A program made the translations under genes and the position numbers. This document shows positions 2,438-18,051 of a stretch of DNA of 18,051 nt, piece after piece. Each line of letters begins with the position of its first letter. Position 1 is the first letter of the stretch. The stretch is from Ramlibacter sp. (lineage in GTDB: Bacteria > Pseudomonadota > Gammaproteobacteria > Burkholderiales > Burkholderiaceae_C), in the NCBI GenBank assembly GCA_025351615.1, contig JANXVP010000064.1:1-18051 (forward strand), given 5' to 3'. The notes beneath the pieces are model-generated. The model saw only the letters and a list, made by a program, of their open reading frames with translations. It made no database searches and had not been told where the DNA came from.

Positions 2438-4783
2438 ATGGACCAAGACCTGCTTTCCACCGACATCGACGACACCGGGCTCGACCTCGCGACCTACGCG
2501 CAGCGCGCCTATCTCGAATATGCGCTGAGCGTCGTCAAGGGCCGGGCCCTGCCCGACGTCTGCGACGGCCAGAAGCCCGTGCAGCGGCGCATCCTGTATT
2601 CGATGTCCCGCATGGGGCTGGGCTTCGGCGGCGCCACCGGCGCCAGGCCTGTCAAGTGCGCGCGCGTGGTCGGCGACGTGCTGGGCCGCTTCCACCCGCA
2701 CGGCGACCAGGCCGCGTACGACGCGCTGGTGCGGATGGCGCAGAACTTTTCGCAGCGCTATCCGCTCATCGACGGCCAGGGAAACTTCGGCAGCCGTGAC
2801 GGCGACGGCGCTGCTGCGATGCGCTACACCGAGGCGCGGCTGGCGCGCATCACCAGCCTGCTGCTCGACGAGATCGACGAAGGCACGGTCGATTTCATTC
2901 CCAACTACGACGGCAGCACGCAGGAGCCGCAGCAGTTGCCGGCGCGCCTGCCGTTCACGCTGCTCAATGGGGCCAGCGGCATCGCGGTTGGCCTGGCCAC
3001 GGAGATTCCCAGCCACAACCTGCGTGAGATCGCCGACGCTTGCGTCGCGCTGATCAAGACACCCAAGCTCACCGACGACGAATTGTTCGCCATCGTTCCG
3101 GGTCCGGACTACCCTGGCGGCGGCCAGATCATCAGCCCTGCGATCGACATCGCCGAAGCGTACCGTGGCGGGCGCGGATCTCTCAAAGTCCGGGCCCGCT
3201 GGAAGATCGAGGATCTGGCGCGCGGCCAGTGGCAGCTGGTGGTGACCGAGCTGCCGCCCGGCGTCAGCTCGCAGCGGGTGCTGGAGGAAATCGAGGAACT
3301 CACCAACCCGAAGGTGCGGGCCGGCAAGAAGGCGCTGTCGACTGAACAGACCCAGCTCAAGCAGACAGTGCTTTCGGTACTCGACGTCGTGCGCGACGAA
3401 TCGAGCAAGGACGCTGCGGTGCGGCTGGTGTTCGAGCCCAAGACCAGCCGCATCGAGCAGCAGGAGCTGATCACGATCTTGCTCGCGCACACCAGCCTCG
3501 AAAGCTCTTCGCCGATCAACCTGACCATGGTCGGCCTCGATGGCCGGCCGGTGCAGAAGTCGATGCGACAGATGCTGGCCGAGTGGATCGAGTTCCGCCA
3601 GCAGACCATCCAGCGCCGCTCGCAGCACCGGCTGGGCAAGGTGCTGGACCGCGTGCACATCCTTGAGGGCCGGAAGCTGGTGCTGCTCAACATCGACGAG
3701 GTGATCGCGATCATCCGCCGCAGCGACGAGCCGAAGGTGGCGCTGATCGCGCGCTTCAAGCTCAGTGAGCGGCAGGCTGAAGACATCCTGGACATCCGGC
3801 TGCGCCAGCTCGCGCGGCTGGAGGCCATCAAGATCGAGCAGGAGCTCAAGGAGCTGCGCGACGAGCAGAAAAAACTCGAGGAAATCCTGGGCAGCCCCGC
3901 GGCCTTGCGGCGCTTGATGGTCAGGGAGATCGAGGCTGACGCAAAGCTGTTCTCCGATCCCCGCCGCACCCTGATCCAGGCGGAAAAACGGGCTGTGGCG
4001 GAAGTCAAGGTCGTCGACGAGCCCGTCACCGTGGTGGTCTCGCAGAAGGGCTGGGTCCGGGCCCAGAAAGGCTGGGTGCGCGATCGCAACGCAGGCGCAG
4101 CGGCGGCACCGCCCGACTACGCGTTCAAGGCCGGCGACGAGCTGTACGGAGCCTTTGAATGCCGGACGGTCGACATGCTGCTGGCCTTCGGCAGCAATGG
4201 CCGCGTCTATTCCGTGCCAGTTTCGATGTTGCCCGGCGCACGAGGCGATGGCCAGCCGGTGACGACCCTGATCGAGCTGGAGCCTGGCACGCACCTGACG
4301 CATTACTTTGCGGGCGCTGCGGGAGCCTGGCTGCTCCTGAGCGGTTCGGGCGGCTACGGCTTTCTCGCGACTGTGGAGAACATGGTGTCGCGGCTGAAGG
4401 CGGGCAAGGCGTTCGTCAGCCTCGGCGAAGGCGAGACGGTGTGCCGGCCGTCGGCAGCCAACGTCCCGCCACAGGTGACAGCCACGCATGTGGCCTGCGC
4501 CTCGACGGGAGGCCGGATCCTGACGTTCGAGATCGGCGAACTCAAGCCGATGGCCAACGGCGGCCGGGGCCTGATGCTGATCGACCTCGAGCCCAGGGAC
4601 ACGCTCGCCGGCGCCGCCGCGTACAGCCGCAGCGTGAAAATTTCCGGGATCGGCCGCGGCGGCAAGCAGCGCGAGGAGACGCTTGAAATCCGGTCTCTCA
4701 ACAACGCCAGGGCGGCCCGTGGAAGAAAGGGCAAGGCTGCCGATCTCGGCTTCAAGCCGCTCGCGATCGAACGGGTCGAGTAG
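2438..4783 (+). CDS. parC: DNA topoisomerase IV subunit A
   Basis: A 781-residue breakage-reunion subunit of topoisomerase IV; it cuts and reseals DNA for ParE-powered strand passage. Seen: the N-terminal [35 protein letters not shown] block (20-54), the QRDR segment [17 protein letters not shown] (87-102), catalytic Tyr130 preceded by Arg129 in [23 protein letters not shown], then a coiled-coil arm (about 405-500) and a beta-pinwheel C-terminal domain (about 515-760). The two quinolone-contact positions equivalent to E. coli ParC Ser80 and Glu84 are Gln91 and Asp95. Shorter C-terminal domain and proximity to parE separate it from GyrA. Start ATG 2438 lacks a clear Shine-Dalgarno; no better in-frame start was seen. 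A 1017-residue open frame on the opposite strand is only a codon-bias shadow. Confidence 0.97.
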
Positions 4784-4813: not shown

Positions 4814-5515
4814 GTGACAATCACGGCAATGAGCGGACCACGGCTGAAAGTCATCGAGAGGGATACGTTGTGGGACCGGGCCTATCTCGCGCTGCGGTCC
4901 GCGCTGCTGGCCGGGCGTTTTGCGCCGGGCGACCGGGTGGTGCTGCGCGAAGTTGCGGACGAACTTGGGATCAGCCTCACGCCGGTCCGCGACGCGGTGA
5001 ACCGCCTGATCGCGGAGAAGATTCTTGCGCGCGGCGGCGTCGGGCCAGGCGGCGGTGCGACGGTGCCGCTGCTCGACGCCAACCAGTTCAGCCAGTTGAT
5101 GACGATTCGCAGCAGCCTCGAGCCGGTCGCCGCTGCAGCGGCCGCGGCCTACGCCACCCCGGCGGAACTTGACGCTGTAGAGGCTTGTCTGGTGGCGATG
5201 AGGCGCTCCGTCAAGGAGAAGCGCACGCCAACTTACCTCAGCGCGCATCACCAGTTCCACTTCAGCATCTACCGCATGTGCCGGATGCCGATCATCGAGG
5301 AGATCATCGAAAGCGCGTGGCTGCGGTGCGCGCCGACGCTCACCCTGGCGTTGCCGGAATACGTCCCGGGCCTGCAACGATTTCCCTCCCACGTGGCGAC
5401 ACTCGAAGCCCTGCGCAGCCACGATGGTGAGGCGGCTGCCGCTGCCATCCGGGGCGACATCGAGAGCGCGCGCCAGGACATCTGCGCATTGCTCGATAAG
5501 TCCACGCAGCGCTGA
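4814..5515 (+). CDS. GntR family transcriptional regulator, FadR/FCD subfamily
   Basis: A DNA-binding regulator, 233 residues from GTG 4814 or 228 from ATG 4829 (neither has a strong Shine-Dalgarno). Residues 15-85 form the GntR winged helix: LWDRAYLALRSALLAGRFAPGDRVVLREVADELGIS, then TPVRDAVNRLIAEKIL with the recognition-helix TPVRDA. Residues about 90-225 are an all-helical FCD ligand domain; SAHHQFHFSIYR (143-154) and FPSHVATLEALRSHDGE (190-206) carry histidines at places where FCD proteins bind metal and ligand. The gene sits 30 bp after parC and 68 bp before the catabolic operon on the same strand. A palindrome of GntR operator form lies in that 68-bp gap, so this protein most likely controls the operon, its inducer being the pathway acid. 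That control is inference. Confidence 0.92.
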   Translation: MTITAMSGPRLKVIERDTLWDRAYLALRSALLAGRFAPGDRVVLREVADELGISLTPVRDAVNRLIAEKILARGGVGPGGGATVPLLDANQFSQLMTIRSSLEPVAAAAAAAYATPAELDAVEACLVAMRRSVKEKRTPTYLSAHHQFHFSIYRMCRMPIIEEIIESAWLRCAPTLTLALPEYVPGLQRFPSHVATLEALRSHDGEAAAAAIRGDIESARQDICALLDKSTQR

Positions 5516-5532
5516 GGCGGCTGACCTGTGCT

Positions 5533-5559
5533 AGCATTGTTGTTTGTTATAACAATGCT
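5533..5559 (+). promoter_or_regulatory. Candidate GntR operator and promoter region of the catabolic operon
   Basis: The 68-bp gap between the regulator and the binding-protein gene holds a perfect 12-bp palindrome, TTGTTATAACAA (5544-5555), nested beside a 9-bp inverted repeat AGCATTGTT (5533-5541) / AACAATGCT (5551-5559). TTGT-N-ACAA half sites are usual for FCD-type GntR regulators. The AT-rich core includes TATAAC (5548-5553), a plausible -10 box, so bound regulator would block RNA polymerase. No convincing -35 box was found. The sequence stands out sharply from the GC-rich surroundings. Confidence 0.7.
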
Positions 5560-5570
5560 CAGCCCCAACT

Positions 5571-5576
5571 GGAAGG
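5571..5576 (+). promoter_or_regulatory. Shine-Dalgarno GGAAGG of the binding-protein gene
   Basis: GGAAGG ends 7 nt before ATG 5584 and fixes the start of the first structural gene of the operon. Confidence 0.65.
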
Positions 5577-5583
5577 TGACACG

Positions 5584-6570
5584 ATGGCGCTCGATTTGAC
5601 ATTCAGGATAGTTGTCCGACTGGCAGCGGCCTGCCTGGCGGCGGCTTGCGTTGCGGGCGGAGCCGCGGAGCCGTTTCCGCACAAGGAAATCCGCTTCATC
5701 GTGCCCTGGAACGCGGGGGGCTCCAACGACATCGCCGCGCGCACGCTCGGCCATCTCCTCGCCGAACAGGGGGTGCGGGTCATCGTAGAAAACGTCCCCG
5801 GGGCGACTGGATCCATCGGCATGGCGAAAGTTGCCAACGCCGAACCGGACGGGTACACGATCGGCATGGGGACCAGTTCCACACTCGCGCTGGTGGCCCA
5901 GAACCTCACCACTTTGCGCAACGAGCAGTTCGCTCCTATTGCGCGGGTCACGATCGACCCGCTGATCCTGCTCGTTCCGGCGGGCAGCCCCTACGGCACC
6001 CTGGAAGCTTTCATCGGCCACCTGAAGAAGAATCCGGGCAAGGTGTCGATCGGCACGCCTGGCAACAACAACCTGAATCACATCTTCGCGGTGATGAGCG
6101 GGCGAGCCGCCGGCGTGGATGTGCTGGCCGTGCCGTATACCGGCGGTTCCAAGGTGATCGCGGACCTTTCCGGCAAGCAGATCGATGCCGCGGTCCTGAA
6201 ACCATCCGAAAGCAAGGCACAGATCGATGGCGGCCTGGTCAAGCCGATCGCGGTGTTCGCCAACGAGCGGCTGAAGGCGCTGCCCGACGTGCCGACCTTC
6301 AAGGAGAAGGGCTTCGACATTTTCCCTTACGGGCCGTTGGTGCAGATGGCGTACATCGTCGCTCCGGCCGCGACGCCATCAGCGGTCCGCGAACGCCTGA
6401 TCGCCATTTTCGGCAAGGCGATCCAGAGCGAGAAGTTCAAGGCCTCCGCCGAAGCAGGAGGCGCGGTGGTGGACGACCTCACCGGCGCGGCACTGGTGCG
6501 GGAAATCAACAGCGTTCAGAAGTCGCTGAACGAAGTCGGAAAAAAAGTGTTTGTCGCGGAGAAAAAGTGA
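5584..6570 (+). CDS. Tripartite tricarboxylate transporter (TctC/Bug family) periplasmic substrate-binding protein
   Basis: A 328-residue solute receptor that would bind a small carboxylate in the periplasm. A signal peptide is seen (RIVVRLAAACLAAACVAGGAA, likely cut near residue 28). The mature part begins with the family hallmarks: IRFIVPWNAGGSNDIAAR (36-53), VIVENVPGATGSIGMAKVANAEPDGYTIGMG (67-96), later NNNLNHIFAVMSGRAAGVDVLAVPYTGGSKVIADLSGKQIDAA and ALPDVPTFKEKG. Length is normal for the family. No TctA or TctB membrane subunit is encoded nearby, so it is an orphan receptor, common for Bug proteins; it may use a transporter elsewhere or act as a sensor. It is first in the operon and its TGA overlaps the GTG of the next gene. 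The ligand is presumably the acid processed by the downstream enzymes. Confidence 0.93.
   Translation: MALDLTFRIVVRLAAACLAAACVAGGAAEPFPHKEIRFIVPWNAGGSNDIAARTLGHLLAEQGVRVIVENVPGATGSIGMAKVANAEPDGYTIGMGTSSTLALVAQNLTTLRNEQFAPIARVTIDPLILLVPAGSPYGTLEAFIGHLKKNPGKVSIGTPGNNNLNHIFAVMSGRAAGVDVLAVPYTGGSKVIADLSGKQIDAAVLKPSESKAQIDGGLVKPIAVFANERLKALPDVPTFKEKGFDIFPYGPLVQMAYIVAPAATPSAVRERLIAIFGKAIQSEKFKASAEAGGAVVDDLTGAALVREINSVQKSLNEVGKKVFVAEKK
6558..6561 (+). promoter_or_regulatory. Shine-Dalgarno GGAG deciding the GTG start at 6567
   Basis: GGAG lies 5 nt before GTG 6567, and that GTG overlaps the previous stop as GTGA. The nearest ATG (6579) would sit 17 nt away, too far for this site. Confidence 0.6.
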
Positions 6571-7721
6571 ACGCAGCCATGAGCCCCATCAAGAAAGTCA
6601 GCTGCCACGTAGTCTCAGCGCCGGTGGAACGTCCCTTCACCTCGTCGCGCGGCTGGCTGTACAAGACCCGCGGCTCGTGCATCGTCGAGATCGAGACCGC
6701 CGACGGCATCACCGGCTGGGGCGAGTGCTATGGCCCGGCCGCGGTGGCCAAGGCCTACATCGAGACGCAGTTCGCGCCACGCATCATCGGCCGCGACGCC
6801 TTCGACGTGGAGGTGATCTGGGAGGACCTCTATAACCGCATCAAGGACTACGGCGGACGCGGCATGGCGACGTCGGCCTTGAGCGGCATCGACATCGCCT
6901 TGTGGGACATCATCGGCAAGTCCTGCGGCAAGCCGATCCACAAACTGATCGGCGGCGCCCAGCGGACCGAAGTGACGGCCTACGCCACCGGCCTGTATTT
7001 CATCGACATGGACCGCCTCGTCGAGGAGGCGGTGGAAGAAGCGCGCGAGTATGTGGAGCAGGGCTTCGTCGCCGTCAAGATGAAGATTGGCCTGGGCGAC
7101 CAGAAGCTGGACATCCGACGCGTTGCTGCCGTGCGCGACGCGATCGGCGCCGACGTGCGCTTGATGGTCGACGCCAACCATTGCCTGACGGTGCCGCAGG
7201 CGATCCGGATCGGCCGTGAACTCGAGAAGCTCGACGTCGAGTGGTTCGAGGAGCCGATCTCGCCGGAGGACGTCGATGGCTACGTCGAAGTCACGCGGGC
7301 GCTGGACATGGCGGTGGCCGGCGGCGAAAACGAATTCACGCGGTGGGGCTTCCGCGACCTGGTGGTGCGCAAGGCGATGGACATCATCCAGCCGGACGTG
7401 TGCGCCGCCGGCGGCATCAGCGAATGTCGCAAGATCGCCACGCTGGCAAGTGCCCATGGCGTCGAATGCGTGCCGCATGCCTGGGGTTCGGCCATCGGCC
7501 TGGCTGCCACGCTGCAGTTCCTGGCGGCGCTGCCCGACCAGCCGCCGAGCTTCCGTCCCACGCCGCCGCTGCTCGAATTCGAGCAGTGCGAGAACCCGTT
7601 TCGCGACCATCTGTCACGCGAGCCGATCGTGCAGCACCGCGGCAAGGTGCAGATCCCGACCGGCCCAGGCCTGGGAATCGAGATCGACCGGGCTATCCTC
7701 GATCGCTACCGCGTCGCCTGA
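6567..7721 (+). CDS. Enolase-superfamily acid dehydratase/racemase, mandelate racemase subgroup (KxK type)
   Basis: A 384-residue enzyme (from GTG 6567) expected to remove the alpha proton of a carboxylate, then dehydrate or epimerise it. An N-terminal capping domain (about 8-130, with WGECYGPAAVAKAYI) precedes the (beta/alpha) barrel. Catalytic features seen: Lys171-x-Lys173 in AVKMKIG, metal ligands Asp202 (VDANH), Glu228 (WFEEP) and Glu254 (AGGENE), Asp277 in IQPDV and His304 in VPHAWGSAI, giving the Asp-His pair of the mandelate racemase subgroup. All expected residues are present, so it should be active. Known members of the subgroup mostly dehydrate sugar acids, but the substrate cannot be read from sequence. 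It is coupled to the binding-protein gene upstream and is followed after 9 bp by the FAH-family gene. Confidence 0.92.
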   Translation: MNAAMSPIKKVSCHVVSAPVERPFTSSRGWLYKTRGSCIVEIETADGITGWGECYGPAAVAKAYIETQFAPRIIGRDAFDVEVIWEDLYNRIKDYGGRGMATSALSGIDIALWDIIGKSCGKPIHKLIGGAQRTEVTAYATGLYFIDMDRLVEEAVEEAREYVEQGFVAVKMKIGLGDQKLDIRRVAAVRDAIGADVRLMVDANHCLTVPQAIRIGRELEKLDVEWFEEPISPEDVDGYVEVTRALDMAVAGGENEFTRWGFRDLVVRKAMDIIQPDVCAAGGISECRKIATLASAHGVECVPHAWGSAIGLAATLQFLAALPDQPPSFRPTPPLLEFEQCENPFRDHLSREPIVQHRGKVQIPTGPGLGIEIDRAILDRYRVA

Positions 7722-7730
7722 GCGCTCGCC

Positions 7731-8627
7731 ATGCGCTTCATCACGTTTTCGGATGCTCCTGGTCGCGCGGTCGCGGGGCTGCTCCGGGGGGACCAGGTCA
7801 TCGACCTCTCGCACCGTGCGTGCCGTGCGGTGATGGGCGACACTGCACCGGCTCTCGACGTGCTGGTGGAGCAGGGGCTGCAGGGCTGGTCACGGCGCTT
7901 GGCCGAGGCCGTGTTCGATGCGGATGCGATCCGGCCGCTGTCGCAGGTCCGGCTGCTGGCACCGTTGCCGCGCCCGGGCAAGATCGTCGGCGCCGCCTTC
8001 AACTTCACCGACGCGCTGGCCGAGCGCGGCATGGCGCTTCCGCCCGAGCCCGTGATCTTCGTGCGCTCAGGTTGCACTGTGATCGGGCCGGGGGAGCCGA
8101 TCCTGATTCCGCCGGACGTGGGCAATGTGGGGTATGAGGCCGAACTGGCCGTGGTGATCGGGCGGCGCGCGCTGCGGGTCGCACCCGAAACCTCCATGCG
8201 CTACGTAGCCGGCTACACCGCCCACAACGACGTGAGCGGCAGCGGGCTGGTCAGGCAGGACGGCGGCAACTTCGTGCGCGGCAAGAATCTGCCGGCGTCG
8301 GCGCCGCTGGGTCCCTGGCTGGCGACGCCGGACGAAGTGCCGGACCCGTACGCGGTCGGCATCCGTCTCGACGTCGACGGGCGGCTCTTGCAGAATGGCT
8401 CGACTGCGACGATGCTGTTCAATATCGCCCACCTGATCTCCTACATTTCGTACCGCATGCCGCTGGAGCCCGGTGACGTGATCGCCACCGGGACGCCCGC
8501 GGGCGTGGCGGCGATGCACGAGCCGCCTGGCTGGCTGATGCCGGGTTGCACCGTGTCGATCGAACTCGAGGGGCTGGGCCGCCTGTCCAACCCGATCCAC
8601 GCCGGAGCGCCATTCCTTGACCAATAA
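7731..8627 (+). CDS. Fumarylacetoacetate hydrolase (FAH) family protein
   Basis: A 298-residue metal-dependent enzyme. FAH-fold enzymes cleave C-C bonds in acylpyruvates such as 2,4-diketo-3-deoxy sugar acids, or dehydrate/decarboxylate 2-keto acids. A short N-terminal domain (1-75) precedes the catalytic fold, which opens with LLAPLPRPGKIVGAAFNF (75-92). Metal ligands seen: Glu136 and Glu138 in YEAELAVVIG and Asp167 in YTAHNDVS; also GKNLPASAPLGPWL (184-197) and the LEPGDVIATGTPAGV motif (245-259). In a sugar-acid pathway it would act after the dehydratases, either splitting a diketo acid to pyruvate plus a short acid, or as a keto-deoxy-acid dehydratase. Start ATG 7731 follows the previous stop by 9 bp; the 3' end overlaps the next gene by 11 bp. 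Confidence 0.92.
   Translation: MRFITFSDAPGRAVAGLLRGDQVIDLSHRACRAVMGDTAPALDVLVEQGLQGWSRRLAEAVFDADAIRPLSQVRLLAPLPRPGKIVGAAFNFTDALAERGMALPPEPVIFVRSGCTVIGPGEPILIPPDVGNVGYEAELAVVIGRRALRVAPETSMRYVAGYTAHNDVSGSGLVRQDGGNFVRGKNLPASAPLGPWLATPDEVPDPYAVGIRLDVDGRLLQNGSTATMLFNIAHLISYISYRMPLEPGDVIATGTPAGVAAMHEPPGWLMPGCTVSIELEGLGRLSNPIHAGAPFLDQ
8604..8607 (+). promoter_or_regulatory. Shine-Dalgarno GGAG deciding the TTG start at 8617
   Basis: GGAG lies 9 nt before TTG 8617, inside the end of the FAH gene. The next in-frame ATG is at 8845, past the first dehydrogenase motifs, so the rare TTG start is the best choice. Confidence 0.55.
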
Positions 8628-9573
8628 ACCACGGGTCCTGCTGACCAATCCGATTCACCCGCTGCTGCTGCCCCTGCTCGCGCAGCATTGCGACGTGGTG
8701 CTGGCGCCCGACACTACGGCGGCGACGCTGGCCCGGCTGGTCGTCGACGCCGATGCCCTGATCGTGCGGGCTCAGCTCGCACCCGACCTGTTCGAGCACG
8801 CCCAGCGGCTGCGCGCAGTGGTTCGCCACGGCGTCGGCCTGGACATGATCCCCGTCGAAGCAGCAACAGCGCGCGGGATCCCGGTGGCCAATCTGCCGGG
8901 CTCCAACACGCAGGCGGTGGTGGAATACTGCGTTGCCGCGATGCTGCACCTGCGGCGCAGGCTGGCCCCGATCGACGCGAAGTTGCGCAGCGAAGGCTGG
9001 GCGGCTGCGCGGCCACTTGCCGATAGCGGTACAGAACTCGGCGGCAGTGTCTGCGGCATTGTCGGCATCGGTGCCGTCGGCGGCCGGCTGGCACATATCG
9101 CTTCCGCGCTCGGCATGCGCGTGCTCGGTCTCACGCGCCGGCCGGGCGGCCTGCCCGCGCACGTCGAAGCGGCGGACAAGGCGCAGCTGTTCCGGCAGTC
9201 CGATGTGGTGGTGCTGGCCTGCCCGCTGAACGAGCAGACCCGCGGCCTGGTCGATGCTGAAACCGTCGCGTCGATGAAGCCCGGCGCGCTCCTGATCAAC
9301 GTGGCCCGGGGGCCGGTGATCGACACCGACGCCGTGCTTGCCGCGTTGCGGGATGGGCACCTCGGCGGGGCCGCGTTCGACGTGCATGACCGGCAGCCGT
9401 TGCGCGGCGACGAGTCGCTGTTCGGCGCGCCCAACCTGTTGCTGACGCCGCACGTGGCCGGCATCACGGCCACCAGCATGCGCGCCATGAGCGAGGGCGC
9501 CGTGGCGACGGTGCTCGCGCTGCTGCGCGGCGAAAGGCCGGCGAACGTCGTCAATCCGCAAGTGTTCCAGTAA
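8617..9573 (+). CDS. D-isomer-specific 2-hydroxyacid dehydrogenase with Gln in place of catalytic Glu
   Basis: A 318-residue NAD(P)-dependent oxidoreductase interconverting a 2-hydroxy acid and a 2-keto acid. The start is TTG 8617, supported by a GGAG and by an 11-bp overlap with the FAH gene. Seen: the substrate-domain motif RAVVRHGVGLDMIPVEAATARGIPVANLPGSN (66-97), the Rossmann glycines GIVGIGAVG (147-155), the CPLNEQTRGLV segment (202-212), catalytic Arg231 in NVARGPVI, and His279 in LTPHVAG. In the usual DVFxxEP motif the sequence reads DVHDRQP (255-261), so the Glu of the Arg-Glu-His set is Gln260. NAD-dependent formate dehydrogenase of the same fold also pairs Gln with His, so activity is not excluded, but the chemistry may differ. 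Likely an oxidation or reduction step of the pathway. Confidence 0.92.
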   Translation: MTNKPRVLLTNPIHPLLLPLLAQHCDVVLAPDTTAATLARLVVDADALIVRAQLAPDLFEHAQRLRAVVRHGVGLDMIPVEAATARGIPVANLPGSNTQAVVEYCVAAMLHLRRRLAPIDAKLRSEGWAAARPLADSGTELGGSVCGIVGIGAVGGRLAHIASALGMRVLGLTRRPGGLPAHVEAADKAQLFRQSDVVVLACPLNEQTRGLVDAETVASMKPGALLINVARGPVIDTDAVLAALRDGHLGGAAFDVHDRQPLRGDESLFGAPNLLLTPHVAGITATSMRAMSEGAVATVLALLRGERPANVVNPQVFQ

Positions 9574-9599
9574 CCGCACCTCCCCACCAGGCAGCTCCC

Positions 9600-10742
9600 A
9601 TGCGCATCGCAGACATCCGTGCCGTCCCGATTTCATTTCCGGTTCCCGCTGACAAATCCGTGACCCTGGGCATCGGCCGCAGTGTCAAGCGCGATTCGGT
9701 GCTGGTGCGGGTCGAAACCGACCAGGGCCATGTCGGCTGGGGCGAGGCGCACCACGGTCGCTGTCCCGGCGCGATCGCGAAACTGATCGACACGACGATT
9801 CGCGAGCTGGTGCTCGGCTTCGACGCGTATGACGTCGCCGGCGTGTGGGCGCGCGTCTACAGGATGCAGCTCGCCAGCCACGGAATGGGCGCGGCGGCGG
9901 CGCTGGCGCTGAGCGGGCTCGACATGGCCTTGTGGGACCTGCGTTGCCAGGCGACAGGCTGGCCGCTGTACCGCTTGCTGGGCGGAACCTCCAGGCCGAT
10001 CAAGGCCTATGCCGGCGGCATCGCGCTCGGCTGGCAGGAACCGTCCGCGCTGGTCGAGGAAGCGCTGCGGCACATTGCCGACGGCTACCACGCACTGAAG
10101 CTGCGCGTCGGGGACACGGCGGCGCGCGACATCGCCCGTGTGCGGGCGGTGCGTCAGGCCGTGGGCGCCGAGATCGACATCCTGGTCGACGCCAACACCA
10201 ATTACACCGTCGACGACGTGCGCAAGGTGATGCCGGCATTCGAGGAAGCGGTGGTCGGCTGGCTGGAAGAACCGTTTCCGCCGCAGGACAGGCGTGCCTA
10301 CCAAATTGCGGCCACATTGGGCCGGGTGCCGCTGGCTGCCGGCGAGAATCACTACACCCGCTACGAGTTCGCCACGCTGCTGGAAGATGGGCACGTTCAG
10401 TTCGTCCAGCCCGACCTCTCCAAAACCGGCGGCGTGACCGAGGCGATGCGGATTGCCGCCATGGCCAGCGCGCACAAGCTCACCGTCAACCCGCACACGT
10501 CGGCAACGGCCATCAACATGGCCACGACCATCCACTTCCTTTGCGGGGTCGACAACCCGGGCTATTTCGAGGGCGACGTCACCTCGCTGAATCCGTTCCG
10601 CGACCAGCTGGCGGACAAGGCGCCCTACGGCCTCGACGACAAGGGGTGTGTGCGGCCGCACGAGGGCGTCGGCATCGGCCTGAAAATCGACCTGGACTTC
10701 ATCGCCGAACACCCGCTGATCGAAGGGCCCTGCTACGTTTGA
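9600..10742 (+). CDS. Second enolase-superfamily acid dehydratase/racemase (KxR type)
   Basis: A 380-residue enolase-superfamily enzyme, clearly different in sequence from the first one in the operon. Capping domain about 1-130 (VGWGEAHHGRCPGAIAKLI); barrel residues seen are Lys167-x-Arg169 in ALKLRVG, metal ligands Asp197 (VDANTNY), Glu223 (WLEEPFPP) and Glu249 (AAGENHYTRYEF), Asp272 in VQPDLSKTGG, and His299 in VNPHTSATAIN. The second Lys of the usual KxK pair is thus Arg, a change that occurs in some sugar-acid dehydratases of the mandelate racemase subgroup and usually points to a different stereochemistry or substrate. It follows the dehydrogenase by 26 bp and is the last gene of the operon; 107 bp separate it from the envelope genes. 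Confidence 0.92.
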   Translation: MRIADIRAVPISFPVPADKSVTLGIGRSVKRDSVLVRVETDQGHVGWGEAHHGRCPGAIAKLIDTTIRELVLGFDAYDVAGVWARVYRMQLASHGMGAAAALALSGLDMALWDLRCQATGWPLYRLLGGTSRPIKAYAGGIALGWQEPSALVEEALRHIADGYHALKLRVGDTAARDIARVRAVRQAVGAEIDILVDANTNYTVDDVRKVMPAFEEAVVGWLEEPFPPQDRRAYQIAATLGRVPLAAGENHYTRYEFATLLEDGHVQFVQPDLSKTGGVTEAMRIAAMASAHKLTVNPHTSATAINMATTIHFLCGVDNPGYFEGDVTSLNPFRDQLADKAPYGLDDKGCVRPHEGVGIGLKIDLDFIAEHPLIEGPCYV

Positions 10743-14079: not shown

Positions 14080-16707
14080 TTACGCGCCGACGCTCTGACG
14101 GGCTTCGCCGGAGTGGGTGAAGTAGCGGGCGCCGAGATCGTCGGAGAGCTTGTACGCGGCGTCGCTGCACAGTGCGAGCAACTCGAGCAGCTTGCCGTAG
14201 CGGCCGTCTTCCTCGCGCTCGCAGATGTCCTGCAGCAGCCACATCTGCGGGTCCGGGACCGTCAGCGCGATCTCGGGCATCTTGCCGGGCGCGCTGCCGG
14301 CCAGCTTAGCCAGTCGCCCGCGCAGCGTCTGCGCGACCCAGCCGAGCGAGCGCGGGTTGTCGCGGTCCAGCACCAGCAGGTCGAGCAGAGCGGGGATGTC
14401 ATGGCGCTGCTGATACTGGGCATGGAAAGTGATGGTGCTGTCGAACAGCGCGATCAGCGCCTCGAAACCGCCTTCGTCGAACACCGACCCCGTGTCGAAC
14501 GCATGCGCCAGGGCCGAGGCCAGGAAGCCCAGCCGCTCCAGATGCCGGCCGCTGGACAACAGGCGCCAGCCGTCGTCGCGTGTCATGCGGTCGGTCTGCG
14601 CGCCGGTCATCGCGGCCGTGTGGCCCGACAGGCTTTCCAGCACACGCAGGGCATCGACCGAGGAGTAATCGCCGTCATTGGAGAGGCAGGCGCACTCCAC
14701 TGTGAACTGCTCTTCGGCCCGGACGATGACGTTCCACTGCTCCAGCGACAAGCGCTCACGCAACGCGGACGCGGCGCTGCGCAGGCCGCCGAGGTTGTAG
14801 CCGACGCTGGTGTGCTCCGGGTCGCACAGCGCCGCGATCAGGGACCGCTCGAAGACACGGCGCGCCTGCGTGGGTGGCGGGACCGCGGGGAGCACCAGCG
14901 CGTGCGCTACGGCCAGTTCGCCCAGCCAGGCCAGCAGCGGCTGCGAGCCCTGGTCTTCGCCATTGAGGCTTTCCAGCGCCAGTCGGGCCAGCCGGGTCGT
15001 GTTTTCGGTGCGCTCGGTGTAGCGTCCCAGCCAGAACAAGTTCTCGGCGGCGCGGCTGGTGGTGCTGTTGCGGCTGCGGTGCGAAATGGTGGCTGCCGGC
15101 TGCTCGTGCTGCAGCAGGCTGCTCGCATCGACCTCGCCTTGGGTCATTACCCAGGTGTCGGCGCTGCTGCCGCCGCGCTGCATCGACGCGATCTCGAGTT
15201 CGGGGCTGGCGATCCGCGTCAGGCCGCCGGGCAGCACGCGCCATGATTGCGGCCCGTCGGCCACGGCGAACACGCGCAGCATCGCCGAGCGGAGCACGAT
15301 GCGGTCCCCACCTTTGCTGCTTTCCCAGGTCGGCATCTGCGACAGCGGCAGGTAAGCCTGGACGGTGTATTGCTCACCCTCGCGAACAATGCGGCCGGCC
15401 CACTCGTCCAGCTCGCGCCGCGACAGCATCTTGCCGAGCACGGCGCCCGCACCGGGCGTTGCATAGGTGGGCTTGATCACGCAAACGGCCAGCTCGGGCA
15501 ACACAGATTCGGTCGCTGCCCGCTCGCCGCACCACCAGGTGGCCAGCGACGGCAACTCAAGCTCCTCGCCCAGCAGGTGGCGCGACAACTTGGGCAGGAA
15601 GCCCAGCATGGCTGTGGACTCGAGGAAGGCCGACCCCGGCGCGTTCGCCACCAGCAGGTTGCCGGCGCGCAGCACCTGCAGCAGGCCCGGCACGCCGAGA
15701 CGCGAATCGCTGCGCAGTTCGAGCGGGTCGAGAAATTCGTCGTCCAGGCGTTTGATCAAACCGTGCACCGGCTCCAGCCCCTTGAGGGTCTTGAGATACA
15801 GGCGCTGGTTGCGCACGGTGAGGTCGCTGCCCTCGACCAGCGTCAGGCCGAGATAGCGGGCGAGGTAAGCGTGCTCGAAGTAGGTTTCGTTGTACGGGCC
15901 GGGCGTCAGCAGCACGATGCGCGGTTCGTCCCGGGTGGGGCACATCTGCTTGATGCCGTCGATCAGGGCGCGGTAGCTGGCGGCCAGCCGCTGCACCCGC
16001 AGGTCGCTAAACGCTTCGGGAAACAAGCGCGATGCGATCAGGCGGTTTTCCAGCAGGTAGCCCAGCCCTGAAGGCGCCTGCGTGCGCTGCGACACCACCC
16101 ACCAGTGCCCATCCGGCCCGCGCGCCAGGTCGAACGCGACGATGTGAAGATGGGTGGCGCCGGGGGGCCGCACGCCGTGCATCGGCCGTAGGTAACCGGG
16201 GTGGCCGTGGACCAGCGCTGGCGGAATCAGGTTGCCCGCCAGCAGGGTCTGCGGACCGTAGACATCGGCCATCACGCTGTCCAGCAGTTTGACCCGCTGC
16301 AGCACGCCGGTCTCGATCTGCTGCCAGCTTTGCGGCGTGACGATCAACGGAAACAGATCCAGCGACCAGGGCCGTTGCGGCCCGTCGGACTCGGCGTAGA
16401 CGTTGTAAGTCACCCCGTTGTCGCGGACCTGCCGCTCGAGGTTGGTGGTGCGGCGGTTCAGGTCGAGGAAGCCGTCATGCCCGAGCCGCTCGAAAAAGCG
16501 CGACCAGGCCGGCGTCGGCAAGGCGTGGGGTGCGACTTCCAGCAGCGGCGCGTCGGTTGCGGCGGCCACAGGCACCGGGACGCCGCCACGCAACTCGTCG
16601 AAGTGACCCGGCGCAGCGGGTGGCGCCAGCGCGGCCGCAAGCGCCGGGGGCGTTTCGTCGGCCCCCTCAGCGAAGAGCGAGTCGGCTGTGTCGTTGGGTT
16701 TGTCCAC
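14080..16707 (-). CDS. Fusion protein: circularly permuted ATP-grasp (type 2) and alpha-E domain
   Basis: An 875-residue two-domain protein. The first part (about 80-500) is a circularly permuted ATP-grasp domain, seen in NRRTTNLERQVRDNGVTYNVYAESDG (85-109), MADVYGPQTLLAGNLIPPALVHGHPGYLRPMHG (146-178), VVSQRTQAPSGLGYLLENRLIASR (204-227), LTPGPYNETYFEHAYLARYLG (267-287) and the later VIKPTYATPGAGAVLG (410-425). The second part (about 550-865) is an all-helical alpha-E domain starting SRAAENLFWLGRYTERTENTTRLARL (551-576). In many bacteria these are two genes; here they are one chain. ATP-grasp enzymes join carboxyl and amine groups, so it may form a peptide or amide bond. Start GTG 16707 has GGGAG 10 nt upstream on the minus strand. 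An Ala/Pro-rich, unconserved N-terminus (1-60) leaves the precise start uncertain. Confidence 0.92.
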   Translation of the reverse strand: MDKPNDTADSLFAEGADETPPALAAALAPPAAPGHFDELRGGVPVPVAAATDAPLLEVAPHALPTPAWSRFFERLGHDGFLDLNRRTTNLERQVRDNGVTYNVYAESDGPQRPWSLDLFPLIVTPQSWQQIETGVLQRVKLLDSVMADVYGPQTLLAGNLIPPALVHGHPGYLRPMHGVRPPGATHLHIVAFDLARGPDGHWWVVSQRTQAPSGLGYLLENRLIASRLFPEAFSDLRVQRLAASYRALIDGIKQMCPTRDEPRIVLLTPGPYNETYFEHAYLARYLGLTLVEGSDLTVRNQRLYLKTLKGLEPVHGLIKRLDDEFLDPLELRSDSRLGVPGLLQVLRAGNLLVANAPGSAFLESTAMLGFLPKLSRHLLGEELELPSLATWWCGERAATESVLPELAVCVIKPTYATPGAGAVLGKMLSRRELDEWAGRIVREGEQYTVQAYLPLSQMPTWESSKGGDRIVLRSAMLRVFAVADGPQSWRVLPGGLTRIASPELEIASMQRGGSSADTWVMTQGEVDASSLLQHEQPAATISHRSRNSTTSRAAENLFWLGRYTERTENTTRLARLALESLNGEDQGSQPLLAWLGELAVAHALVLPAVPPPTQARRVFERSLIAALCDPEHTSVGYNLGGLRSAASALRERLSLEQWNVIVRAEEQFTVECACLSNDGDYSSVDALRVLESLSGHTAAMTGAQTDRMTRDDGWRLLSSGRHLERLGFLASALAHAFDTGSVFDEGGFEALIALFDSTITFHAQYQQRHDIPALLDLLVLDRDNPRSLGWVAQTLRGRLAKLAGSAPGKMPEIALTVPDPQMWLLQDICEREEDGRYGKLLELLALCSDAAYKLSDDLGARYFTHSGEARQSVGA

Positions 16708-17011
16708 TGTGGGGATTCTCCCATCCCTGCCTCGAGCGGGTCCATCGGGCTGTTGCAGGGGGACGACGGATGTGGACGCTGGTCCTCACGGTTCCTGGTC
16801 CCGGTAGGCCAGGCCTTGGCCGGTTCGCAGGACCTTGCGACGAGATTGATCGACCATCATCATGGCAAACAGGGTTCACCCGCACCGAACAACGCCGATC
16901 ACTCTTTCGGCAGCTTGCCTGCCGCTTGTACTGACTGGCGCTTCGGTGACGCTATCGGTCAGTCTCTTGCCGTTGAGGGGGAGTCCATGTAGGAAGGGTA
17001 AGGCGCGTTCA
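16708..17011. other. Gap of about 300 bp between the fusion gene and the acetyltransferase gene
   Basis: No convincing gene lies here; the open frames that cross it are extensions of antisense frames of the fusion gene. It should hold the promoter of the minus-strand fusion operon near 16708-16860, but no clear -35/-10 pair was recognised. The half near the acetyltransferase gene has lower GC and contains partial matches to integron core sites (see the weak attC candidate) and a short inverted repeat ACTGAC (16930-16935) / GTCAGT (16958-16963). Confidence 0.5.
16884..16978 (-). repeat. Weak candidate degenerate attC site after the acetyltransferase gene
   Basis: On the minus strand CCTCAAC (16978-16972) and GTTCGGT (16890-16884) each match six of seven positions of the integron core consensuses RYYYAAC and GTTRRRY, 95 bp apart, close to the 93 bp of the clear site at 17592-17684. 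The arms between them do not pair well and do not resemble the clear site. GCCTTAC (17004-16998, minus) is another one-mismatch box nearer the stop codon. Treat as speculative. Confidence 0.22.
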
Positions 17012-17569
17012 TTATTCGAGCGGAATGCGGAAACGCAGCCCAGGAACACTTCCGAACTGAGGCGGCTTTGTGAAGCGTTCTACGAGCACGCCACCATTGG
17101 CTTGAATCACCCGCTGCGAACCCAGGTTGTCTGGATCGGTGGTGATCTCGACGAACGCAAGACCGACAGCTTTCGCCTCCGGCAATAGCAAACGGAGTGC
17201 AAGTGTGGCGTAACCTTGGCCTTGCTTCCAGGGCACTATTGCATAGCCAATATGGCCCAGGCAGTGCGGCGGCAGCGCCGTGGTGCCAGGTGCCCAGCGA
17301 AAGCCGATGCTTCCACAAAACTCTCCATCCCACAGCCAGCGGCGAAACCCGGGGAGACGATTCACAACCGTACCATCTGGGAGCGGGACGGGAGGACCCT
17401 TTGCTTCGCGATCCACAAGGCTACTGAGAAATGCTGAGGAATTGGCGTTGATCTGTGCGAGTTCCTCACGGGCCGCGACTTCGCCACGCACGTTGTCGGC
17501 TGACCAACCTCGCTCGAGTGCTGCGACATAGCTCGGCAGGTGATCGGATGATGGCCAGACAAGTTGCAT
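17012..17569 (-). CDS. GNAT family N-acetyltransferase, probable integron cassette gene
   Basis: A 185-residue acetyltransferase. Seen: a substrate-side N-terminal half (MQLVWPSSDHLPSYVAALERGW, with PDGTVVNRLPGFRRWLWDGEFCGSIGFRW at 64-92), the acetyl-CoA loop GYAIVPWKQGQGYATLAL (108-125), and TTDPDNLGSQRVIQANGG (143-160), which matches the GNAT motif in which an Asn is followed by SxRV and a helix. The acceptor is unknown; small-molecule or antibiotic acetylation is possible but not shown. Codon use is visibly less GC-rich than the neighbouring genes. The ATG lies only 22 nt after the GTTAGGC core site of the attC at 17592-17684 on the same strand, the layout of an integron cassette, and GNAT genes are common cassette cargo. 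Confidence 0.87.
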   Translation of the reverse strand: MQLVWPSSDHLPSYVAALERGWSADNVRGEVAAREELAQINANSSAFLSSLVDREAKGPPVPLPDGTVVNRLPGFRRWLWDGEFCGSIGFRWAPGTTALPPHCLGHIGYAIVPWKQGQGYATLALRLLLPEAKAVGLAFVEITTDPDNLGSQRVIQANGGVLVERFTKPPQFGSVPGLRFRIPLE

Positions 17570-17591
17570 AGTGCGGCAGGGGTTTGGTAGC

Positions 17592-17684
17592 GCCTAACGT
17601 CGGACTTGACTGGCGACCGGCGGAGAGTGCAGCGGCGAAGCCGCGCAACGCCGCTGGGCGTCCGGGTCGATCGACCTGTTAGCC
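17592..17684 (-). repeat. Integron attC recombination site (93 bp)
   Basis: Read on the minus strand, the element starts with GGCTAAC (17684-17678, six of seven matches to RYYYAAC) and ends with GTTAGGC (17598-17592, full match to GTTRRRY; recombination would fall between G and T). Inside the core sites the arms show imperfect dyad symmetry, and the centre holds a perfect 8-bp inverted repeat, CAGCGGCG (17630-17637) / CGCCGCTG (17649-17656). The stop codon TAA of the upstream minus-strand gene lies inside the first core site, and the next minus-strand gene starts 22 nt past the second, exactly the cassette arrangement. A size near 90 bp suits chromosomal integrons of xanthomonads. Confidence 0.8.
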
Positions 17685-17912
17685 CTCGGCTCCCTCGAGC
17701 GTGCGCACAGCGATGACATCTCTATCACCGACATGGCGAATGTCTTCCGCGTGAAGCGTAAGCACGGCCTGCGTTCGGCCGAAAGCGGCAACAAACTCGA
17801 CCTCCATGGCGTCCGGTGCAAGCAATTCGACAATTGCACCCAAGTCGCCGCGACGCAGCCCAGCCTCGGCGATGTCATGAGTAAGAGCGACGGTATCAAG
17901 CAATTTGTCCAT
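17679..17912 (-). CDS. DUF4926 domain-containing small protein, probable integron cassette gene
   Basis: A 77-residue protein beginning MDKLLDTVALTHDIAEAGLRRGDLGAIVELL and continuing EVEFVAAFGRTQAVLTLHAEDIRHV. The pattern (VxLTHDLPExGLxxGDxGTIV ... EVEFxxxxGxTxAVxTLxxxDIR) is that of DUF4926 proteins, small beta-rich proteins of unknown function often found in integron cassettes and mobile regions. ATG 17912 has GGGGTAAG just upstream on the minus strand. The stop TAA overlaps the first core site of the attC, a hallmark of cassette genes. Function is not known; a role beside a toxin or as a stress/defence accessory is only speculation. Confidence 0.82.
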   Translation of the reverse strand: MDKLLDTVALTHDIAEAGLRRGDLGAIVELLAPDAMEVEFVAAFGRTQAVLTLHAEDIRHVGDRDVIAVRTLEGAEG

Positions 17913-17957
17913 GGCTTACCCCGGAAATACGGTCACTAGTAGATTGAATCATTGAAA

Positions 17958-17999
17958 TCAACGGTGTAGTCTTTATATGAGGAGGCATGACACCGTTGA
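17958..17999 (+). repeat. 10-bp inverted repeat flanking the promoter and start of the right-edge gene
   Basis: TCAACGGTGT (17958-17967) and ACACCGTTGA (17990-17999) are perfect inverted copies separated by 22 nt. The spacer holds a possible -10 box TATATG (17974-17979; TTGAAA at 17952-17957 is a possible -35, 16 nt away) and AGGAGG (17980-17985). It could be an operator, an mRNA hairpin presenting or hiding the ribosome-binding site, or part of a mobile-element end. Confidence 0.6.
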
Positions 18000-18051
18000 A
18001 ACTGAACGAACAAGAGGCGGCGGAGTTGCGAAGCGTGATGCGTAAGCAAAC
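17987..18051 (+). CDS. N-terminal fragment of a gene running off the window, possibly an IS630-type transposase
   Basis: From ATG 17987 the frame stays open to the window edge and encodes 21 full residues, starting MTPLKLNEQEAAELRSVMRK. A start of the type (K)L(T/N)xxExAELxxxxRxQ is typical of the helix-turn-helix part of IS630-family transposases, but 21 residues are too few to be sure. AGGAGG ends only 1 nt before this ATG, too close for normal use; a TTG at 17996 would be at a better distance (10 nt). The gene faces away from the cassette genes. Confidence 0.38.
   Translation, partial: MTPLKLNEQEAAELRSVMRKQ

Follow-up and report, generated by a model that had tools for sequence, protein, structure and literature searches.

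The 93-nt element at 17592-17684 is very probably a genuine attC site, lying outermost in an integron cassette array on a chromosome of the Ramlibacter group. The window, by which we mean the whole stretch of DNA analyzed, is an entire contig (C105) of 18,051 bases from a 3.86-Mb genome assembled into 583 contigs. The contig terminates at 18051, 367 bases past the attC site and inside the array. It carries no intI or attI, and a covariance model (R1, described below) found no second attC on it, leaving a single site before the contig end. The features of the right part of the window are listed here, by increasing coordinate.

14080..16707, minus strand: CP-ATP-grasp/alpha-E backbone gene flanking the array (PF14403, 5.6e-144)
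16725..17011, no strand: zone with the left edge of the segment missing in relatives (blastn)
16985..17004, minus strand: possible decayed R''-L'' half-site following the GNAT gene, weak and not accepted (R1, 6.8 bits)
17012..17569, minus strand: GNAT acetyltransferase gene, after the last attC (PF13302, 9.2e-12)
17592..17684, minus strand: attC site, 93 nt (R1 covariance model, 73.3 bits, E 5e-16)
17592..17598, minus strand: R' box GTTAGGC (sequence)
17678..17684, minus strand: R'' box GGCTAAC, containing the DUF4926 stop codon (sequence)
17679..17912, minus strand: DUF4926 gene, intact, 77 aa, candidate antidote or immunity protein (PF16277, 1.9e-19)
17916..17939, minus strand: 3' remnant of a DUF6883 gene, seven codons (LVTVFPG) and the stop (match to the genome G076)
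17940..18051, no strand: DNA interrupting DUF6883, to the contig end (10-bp inverted repeat, start of a plus-strand ORF)

An earlier sequence-only reading had described the element as having one full GTTRRRY box and a near-perfect RYYYAAC box, and the sequence agrees. The R' box is a full match to GTTRRRY, and the R'' box has a single mismatch to RYYYAAC, at position 2. The same reading had placed a gene stop codon in the first box and the next gene 22 nt from the second; the DUF4926 stop codon (17681-17679) does lie inside the R'' box and the GNAT start codon (17569) is 22 nt from the R' box. Pfam supports its naming of both flanking genes, and the GC content near the right end is lower, as it had said (0.58-0.62 in three 600-base blocks from 16801, versus 0.61-0.71 in the remaining window).

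Searched against Rfam, the attC element matches nothing at the gathering threshold, and its predicted DNA folding is unexceptional (an equally good fold arises in 53 of 200 minus-strand shuffles and in 13 of 200 plus-strand shuffles), so an independent attC model was required. BLAST with the element gave 77-85% identity over 85-94 nt, with at least nine same-genus genomes among the matches listed, and a regular-expression script run on the arrays of relatives matched by BLAST returned 113 attC-like rows. R1 is a genus-specific covariance model made for the present analysis from 45 diverse attC rows, with the window's own genome left out and the R and L pairings set by hand. Run on the window with filters off, it gives the minus strand 73.3 bits and the plus strand 8.9, which establishes the site and its orientation. 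This is the hit that the sequence-only reading had expected of such a model, and the orientation matches the two minus-strand genes as it had proposed. The alignment spans positions 1-91 of 91, including the L boxes and the attC structure. In the whole-genome search the same site has an E of 1.1e-13.

That the element is a chance inverted repeat, a repeat element or a terminator is extremely improbable. The blank Rfam result and the ordinary fold energy would suit such an origin, but the next-best R1 match within the window reaches only 10.5 bits (E 0.92) against the 73.3 of the attC, and the model is not indiscriminate, given that it finds nothing at E ≤ 0.001 in 15 of the 59 genomes of the genus. 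We consider this reading ruled out by the R1 score of the site. The attC is identified by its conserved boxes and the way they are arranged, and not by fold energy.

attC arrays are widespread in the genus, where an integrase platform recurs at a particular locus and other arrays lie away from it. Our sample has 59 genomes, the window's own counted, and the genus is Ramlibacter as defined by GTDB, which includes Caenimonas sedimenti (G076). attC sites (R1, E ≤ 0.001, stricter filters) were found in 44 of the 59 genomes and IntI (E ≤ 1e-40) in 33. attC is present in 14 of the 26 genomes without such an IntI, and absent in three of the 33 with one. The integrase adjoins an ABC transporter gene at 9 of 30 IntI loci, that of the window's genome included (flanks up to 1.5 kb). 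The genes beyond this genome's own platform, on contig C351, are syntenic in G012; the platform site is therefore common to both.

The genus arrays also carry a cassette signature. R'' is a perfect complement of the R' at the front of its own cassette in 50 of 78 neighboring pairs, whereas the R' of its own site is the perfect complement in 20 of them; in 2000 shuffles the count averaged 15.3 and never exceeded 26. Such complementarity is expected when cassettes are inserted as circles. Twelve of the 113 regular-expression rows were dropped before these counts and before the ungapped half-site controls given below (the site in the window, three likely false rows, and rows of 51, 60, 89, 99 and 100 nt), and some of the shortened rows may be real attC variants. 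Applied to the window, the pairing rule would predict GTTAGCC past the right edge, at the cassette front that lies off the contig.

The sequence-only reading had called for a search for further attC sites and an integrase, and the genome contains both. It had expected intI and attI, if present, beyond the right edge of the window; the integrase lies on another contig, C351, whose array is likewise cut by a contig end. The whole-genome R1 search (E ≤ 1) found eight attC sites on five contigs: one in the window and seven others, of which two are on C351, three on C3, and one each on C382 and C37. C351 encodes an IntI that scores about 438 bits against TIGR02249 (437.9-438.4; cut-off 265) and has no internal stop. 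A GTTAGGC that is attI-like in motif and position ends 7 nt ahead of the first cassette gene, and attC sites follow at 976-1062 and 354-431 in an array that runs off the left end of the contig. With IntI, the attI-like box and attC together, C351 appears from its sequence to carry a complete integron.

C3 has three attC sites (580-2083), and an integrase is absent from its 10.1 kb. The last R' of its array, GTTATGT, overlaps the start of the next gene and would fit insertion into a genomic site that is not an attC. On C382 an attC at 525-602, near the contig start, overlaps the end of an isochorismatase-like gene, with other genes next to it, and the locus looks like an array end. C37 has a lone divergent attC at 3873-3953, scoring 42.5 bits and with GTCTGAC and GTCAGGC as its boxes; it is flanked by a LysR-like regulator on one side and an aminotransferase-like gene on the other. 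The genes on C382 and C37 were named by eye.

An integrase like that of C351 would bind the folded bottom strand of the window attC, which is the plus strand of the window. Strand exchange would occur within the R' box (17592..17598) at G|TT, which we take from established integron knowledge to be the exchange point, and would insert or excise a cassette with DUF6883-DUF4926. We infer recombination at this attC from its sequence, and the C351 integrase is presumably the maker of the site.

On the left side, the CP-ATP-grasp gene occurs in all 23 same-genus relatives searched, and blastn similarity to the relatives extends to 16756 at most (16725 in the two closest). The sequence-only reading had held that the GNAT and DUF4926 genes are not backbone. 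GNAT, DUF4926 and IntI are all missing beside the CP-ATP-grasp gene in each of the 18 neighborhoods fetched from the 23 relatives (four of the upstream stretches are short, at 2.7 to 7.2 kb), and R1 finds no attC in these 18 neighborhoods, which total 293 kb. Conserved backbone beside the CP-ATP-grasp gene is thus rejected for the pair (0 of 18). The genes upstream of the CP-ATP-grasp gene differ between the two closest relatives, so the locus does rearrange and no clean empty site could be drawn.

The contig ends so soon after the attC that a link to C351 is unproven, and we slightly favor a separate array over the far end of the C351 array. The chances seem a little better than even that the window holds a CALIN-like array without its own integrase, in which IntI put cassettes into a secondary site beside the CP-ATP-grasp gene. 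The same genome has attC loci away from IntI on C3, C382 and C37, no attC lies beside the CP-ATP-grasp gene in the 18 fetched relatives, and nothing in the window matches the far-end ORFs of the platform arrays in G076 and G065, the two relatives whose far ends were compared. There is also a precedent in Xanthomonas, where the available text of PMC12444791 describes a sedentary chromosomal integron platform at ilvD and CALINs at other loci. Yet the one visible attC is below the default CALIN threshold of two attC sites without a nearby integrase (PMC9024848, available text), and the window contig and C351 are both cut within arrays, in orientations that permit joining. The cassettes of C351 read leftwards off its left end, and those of the window read leftwards from its right end. 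The window could accordingly be where the platform array of C351 ends, with a rearrangement having made the CP-ATP-grasp gene its neighbor, as the differing upstream genes of the two closest relatives would allow; we hold this possible, at clearly less than an even chance. The far ends in G076 and G065 are unlike the window, and C382, where an attC follows a cassette-like gene and other genes come next, competes for the role of array end.

The GNAT gene was proposed in the sequence-only reading to be the last cassette. It does come directly after the last attC, but no attC of its own was detected, so we infer, and do not observe, that it arrived as a cassette and then lost its attC. The gene has homologues in 14 of the 59 genomes of the genus, its own included. 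The closest (G078, 79% identical) likewise comes straight after an attC, the fifth and last in its array, and no further site was found beyond it. This G078 array (L168, 10336-13594) belongs to a genome in which IntI was not found.

The GNAT gene may instead be a resident with the array inserted immediately upstream, which we judge somewhat short of an even bet. The missing attC after the gene, in the window and in G078 alike, speaks for residence, as do the ~1.5-kb flanks of the genus homologues, which lack attC at 12 of 14 loci (in a longer stretch of the G030 locus an attC is ~4 kb away). In the same direction, among eight longer GNAT stretches compared, only G012 and G074 have long flanks in common. 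Set against this, the R' box before the gene is a full GTTRRRY (GTTAGGC) in both the window and G078, like the box at the front of a cassette. An intact cassette would be expected to have GCCTAAC after the gene, and the search gave one-mismatch forms only. One of these, GCCTTAC, stands 7 nt past the GNAT stop, close to the predicted R'' and so in favor of a cassette, though equally good 7-mers occur in 369 of 1500 controls.

A decayed attC at this position, first suspected by eye, was not accepted. The full-length R1 match after the gene (16917-17004) has 6.8 bits and an E of 7.5, with no GTT at the R' position. In a local-alignment control, the half-site score was reached in 239 of 600 random windows, which counts against such a site. 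In an ungapped in-register control, half-sites of 7, 10, 13, 16, 20 and 24 nt were equaled in 369, 26, 36, 96, 14 and 59 of 1500 windows, six lengths having been tried without multiple-test correction; these outcomes range from no support to suggestive. The two controls conflict.

As for the cassette upstream, the sequence-only reading had DUF4926 as its content. That gene is present, but the same cassette once also had DUF6883, of which seven codons are left. In G076, a DUF6883 gene (PF21814, 7.2e-29) lies immediately upstream of a DUF4926 gene with a 90% identical product. LVTVFPG matches the end of that DUF6883 ORF, and past 17939 the window is unrelated to it. An element was likely inserted into the DUF6883 gene after 17939. 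The DNA there includes a perfect 10-bp inverted repeat (TCAACGGTGT/ACACCGTTGA, 17958-17999) that spans the start of a plus-strand ORF; the 21 residues of this ORF before the contig end match no Pfam family. A comparison of 17940-18051 with 300 genomes of the order gave three short matches outside its own genome, judged to be chance, and searches of plasmids and of 37 other genomes gave nothing. An insertion sequence is our guess for this segment, and there may be a misjoin in the last 112 bases of the contig.

At 29 other DUF4926 loci of the order, a DUF6883 match is found beside DUF4926 at 14 (two of the 14 overlap and share one DUF6883). R1, which is tuned to Ramlibacter, finds no attC at these 29 loci, three of which are below the Pfam cut-off, and none in 12 kb around the G076 pair. 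DUF6883-DUF4926 was thus not seen as a regular cassette elsewhere, at the 29 loci or in G076.

We predict that the DUF6883 homologue of G076 (P0121) is a tRNase of the CdiA-CT Kp342 type. Its model (mean pLDDT 94.3) has the fold of PDB 6CP9, a CdiA-CT tRNase toxin with its CdiI immunity protein from Klebsiella pneumoniae 342 (PMC9086364, available text). K14, Y18, H24, R102 and T105 of P0121 align with the active-site residues K157, Y160, H170, R252 and T255 of that toxin (PMC9086364, available text), given a numbering offset derived in this analysis. Across 35 sequences K14, Y18 and H24 are invariant, T105 is conserved in at least 90% and R102 falls below the 90% level. In contrast to the K. 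pneumoniae toxin, which is the tail of a long CdiA, P0121 is a stand-alone ORF of 109 aa.

The DUF4926 model is poorer (mean pLDDT 73.7, last 14 residues below 50). Its structural matches are weak and SH3-like, with a best E of 0.033, and 6CP9 is absent from the 50 matches listed. The antidote role therefore rests on the gene pairing. PADLOC has no match for DUF4926, DUF6883 or GNAT. We tentatively suggest that DUF6883-DUF4926 might be a stand-alone CDI-type tRNase toxin-antidote pair made into an integron cassette. In the window the toxin would have been destroyed, and the retained antidote and attC could shield the host.

The window attC is ordinary integron biology, and the chief interest of the cargo is the probable toxin-antidote pair with its toxin half broken. 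Testable roles can now be proposed for two unstudied families, that of a CdiA-CT-like tRNase for DUF6883 and that of the matching antidote for DUF4926. As in Xanthomonas (PMC12444791, available text), the IntI platform recurs at one locus in some members of the genus, attC arrays are present at other places in the same genome, and some genomes have attC with IntI not found. The platform differs from that of Xanthomonas in lying, at 9 of the 30 IntI loci, beside an ABC transporter gene and not at ilvD, and one attC is visible in the window. The Vibrio cholerae superintegron has toxin-antitoxin cassettes (PMC11023631, available text). If DUF6883-DUF4926 has been read correctly, the Ramlibacter arrays would likewise carry toxin-antidote genes, although the window pair would be of the CdiA-CT tRNase type and has a broken toxin gene. 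In the open-licence literature searched, none of the papers that mention both integrons and Ramlibacter, PMC11662351 among them, appears to have Ramlibacter integrons as its subject; this literature does not mention DUF6883 and mentions DUF4926 once (subscription papers were outside its scope).

Away from the array, consecutive genes at 4814-10742 likely form a catabolic cluster. They encode a GntR regulator, a tripartite tricarboxylate receptor, two mandelate-racemase-like enzymes, an FAA hydrolase, and a 2-hydroxyacid dehydrogenase.
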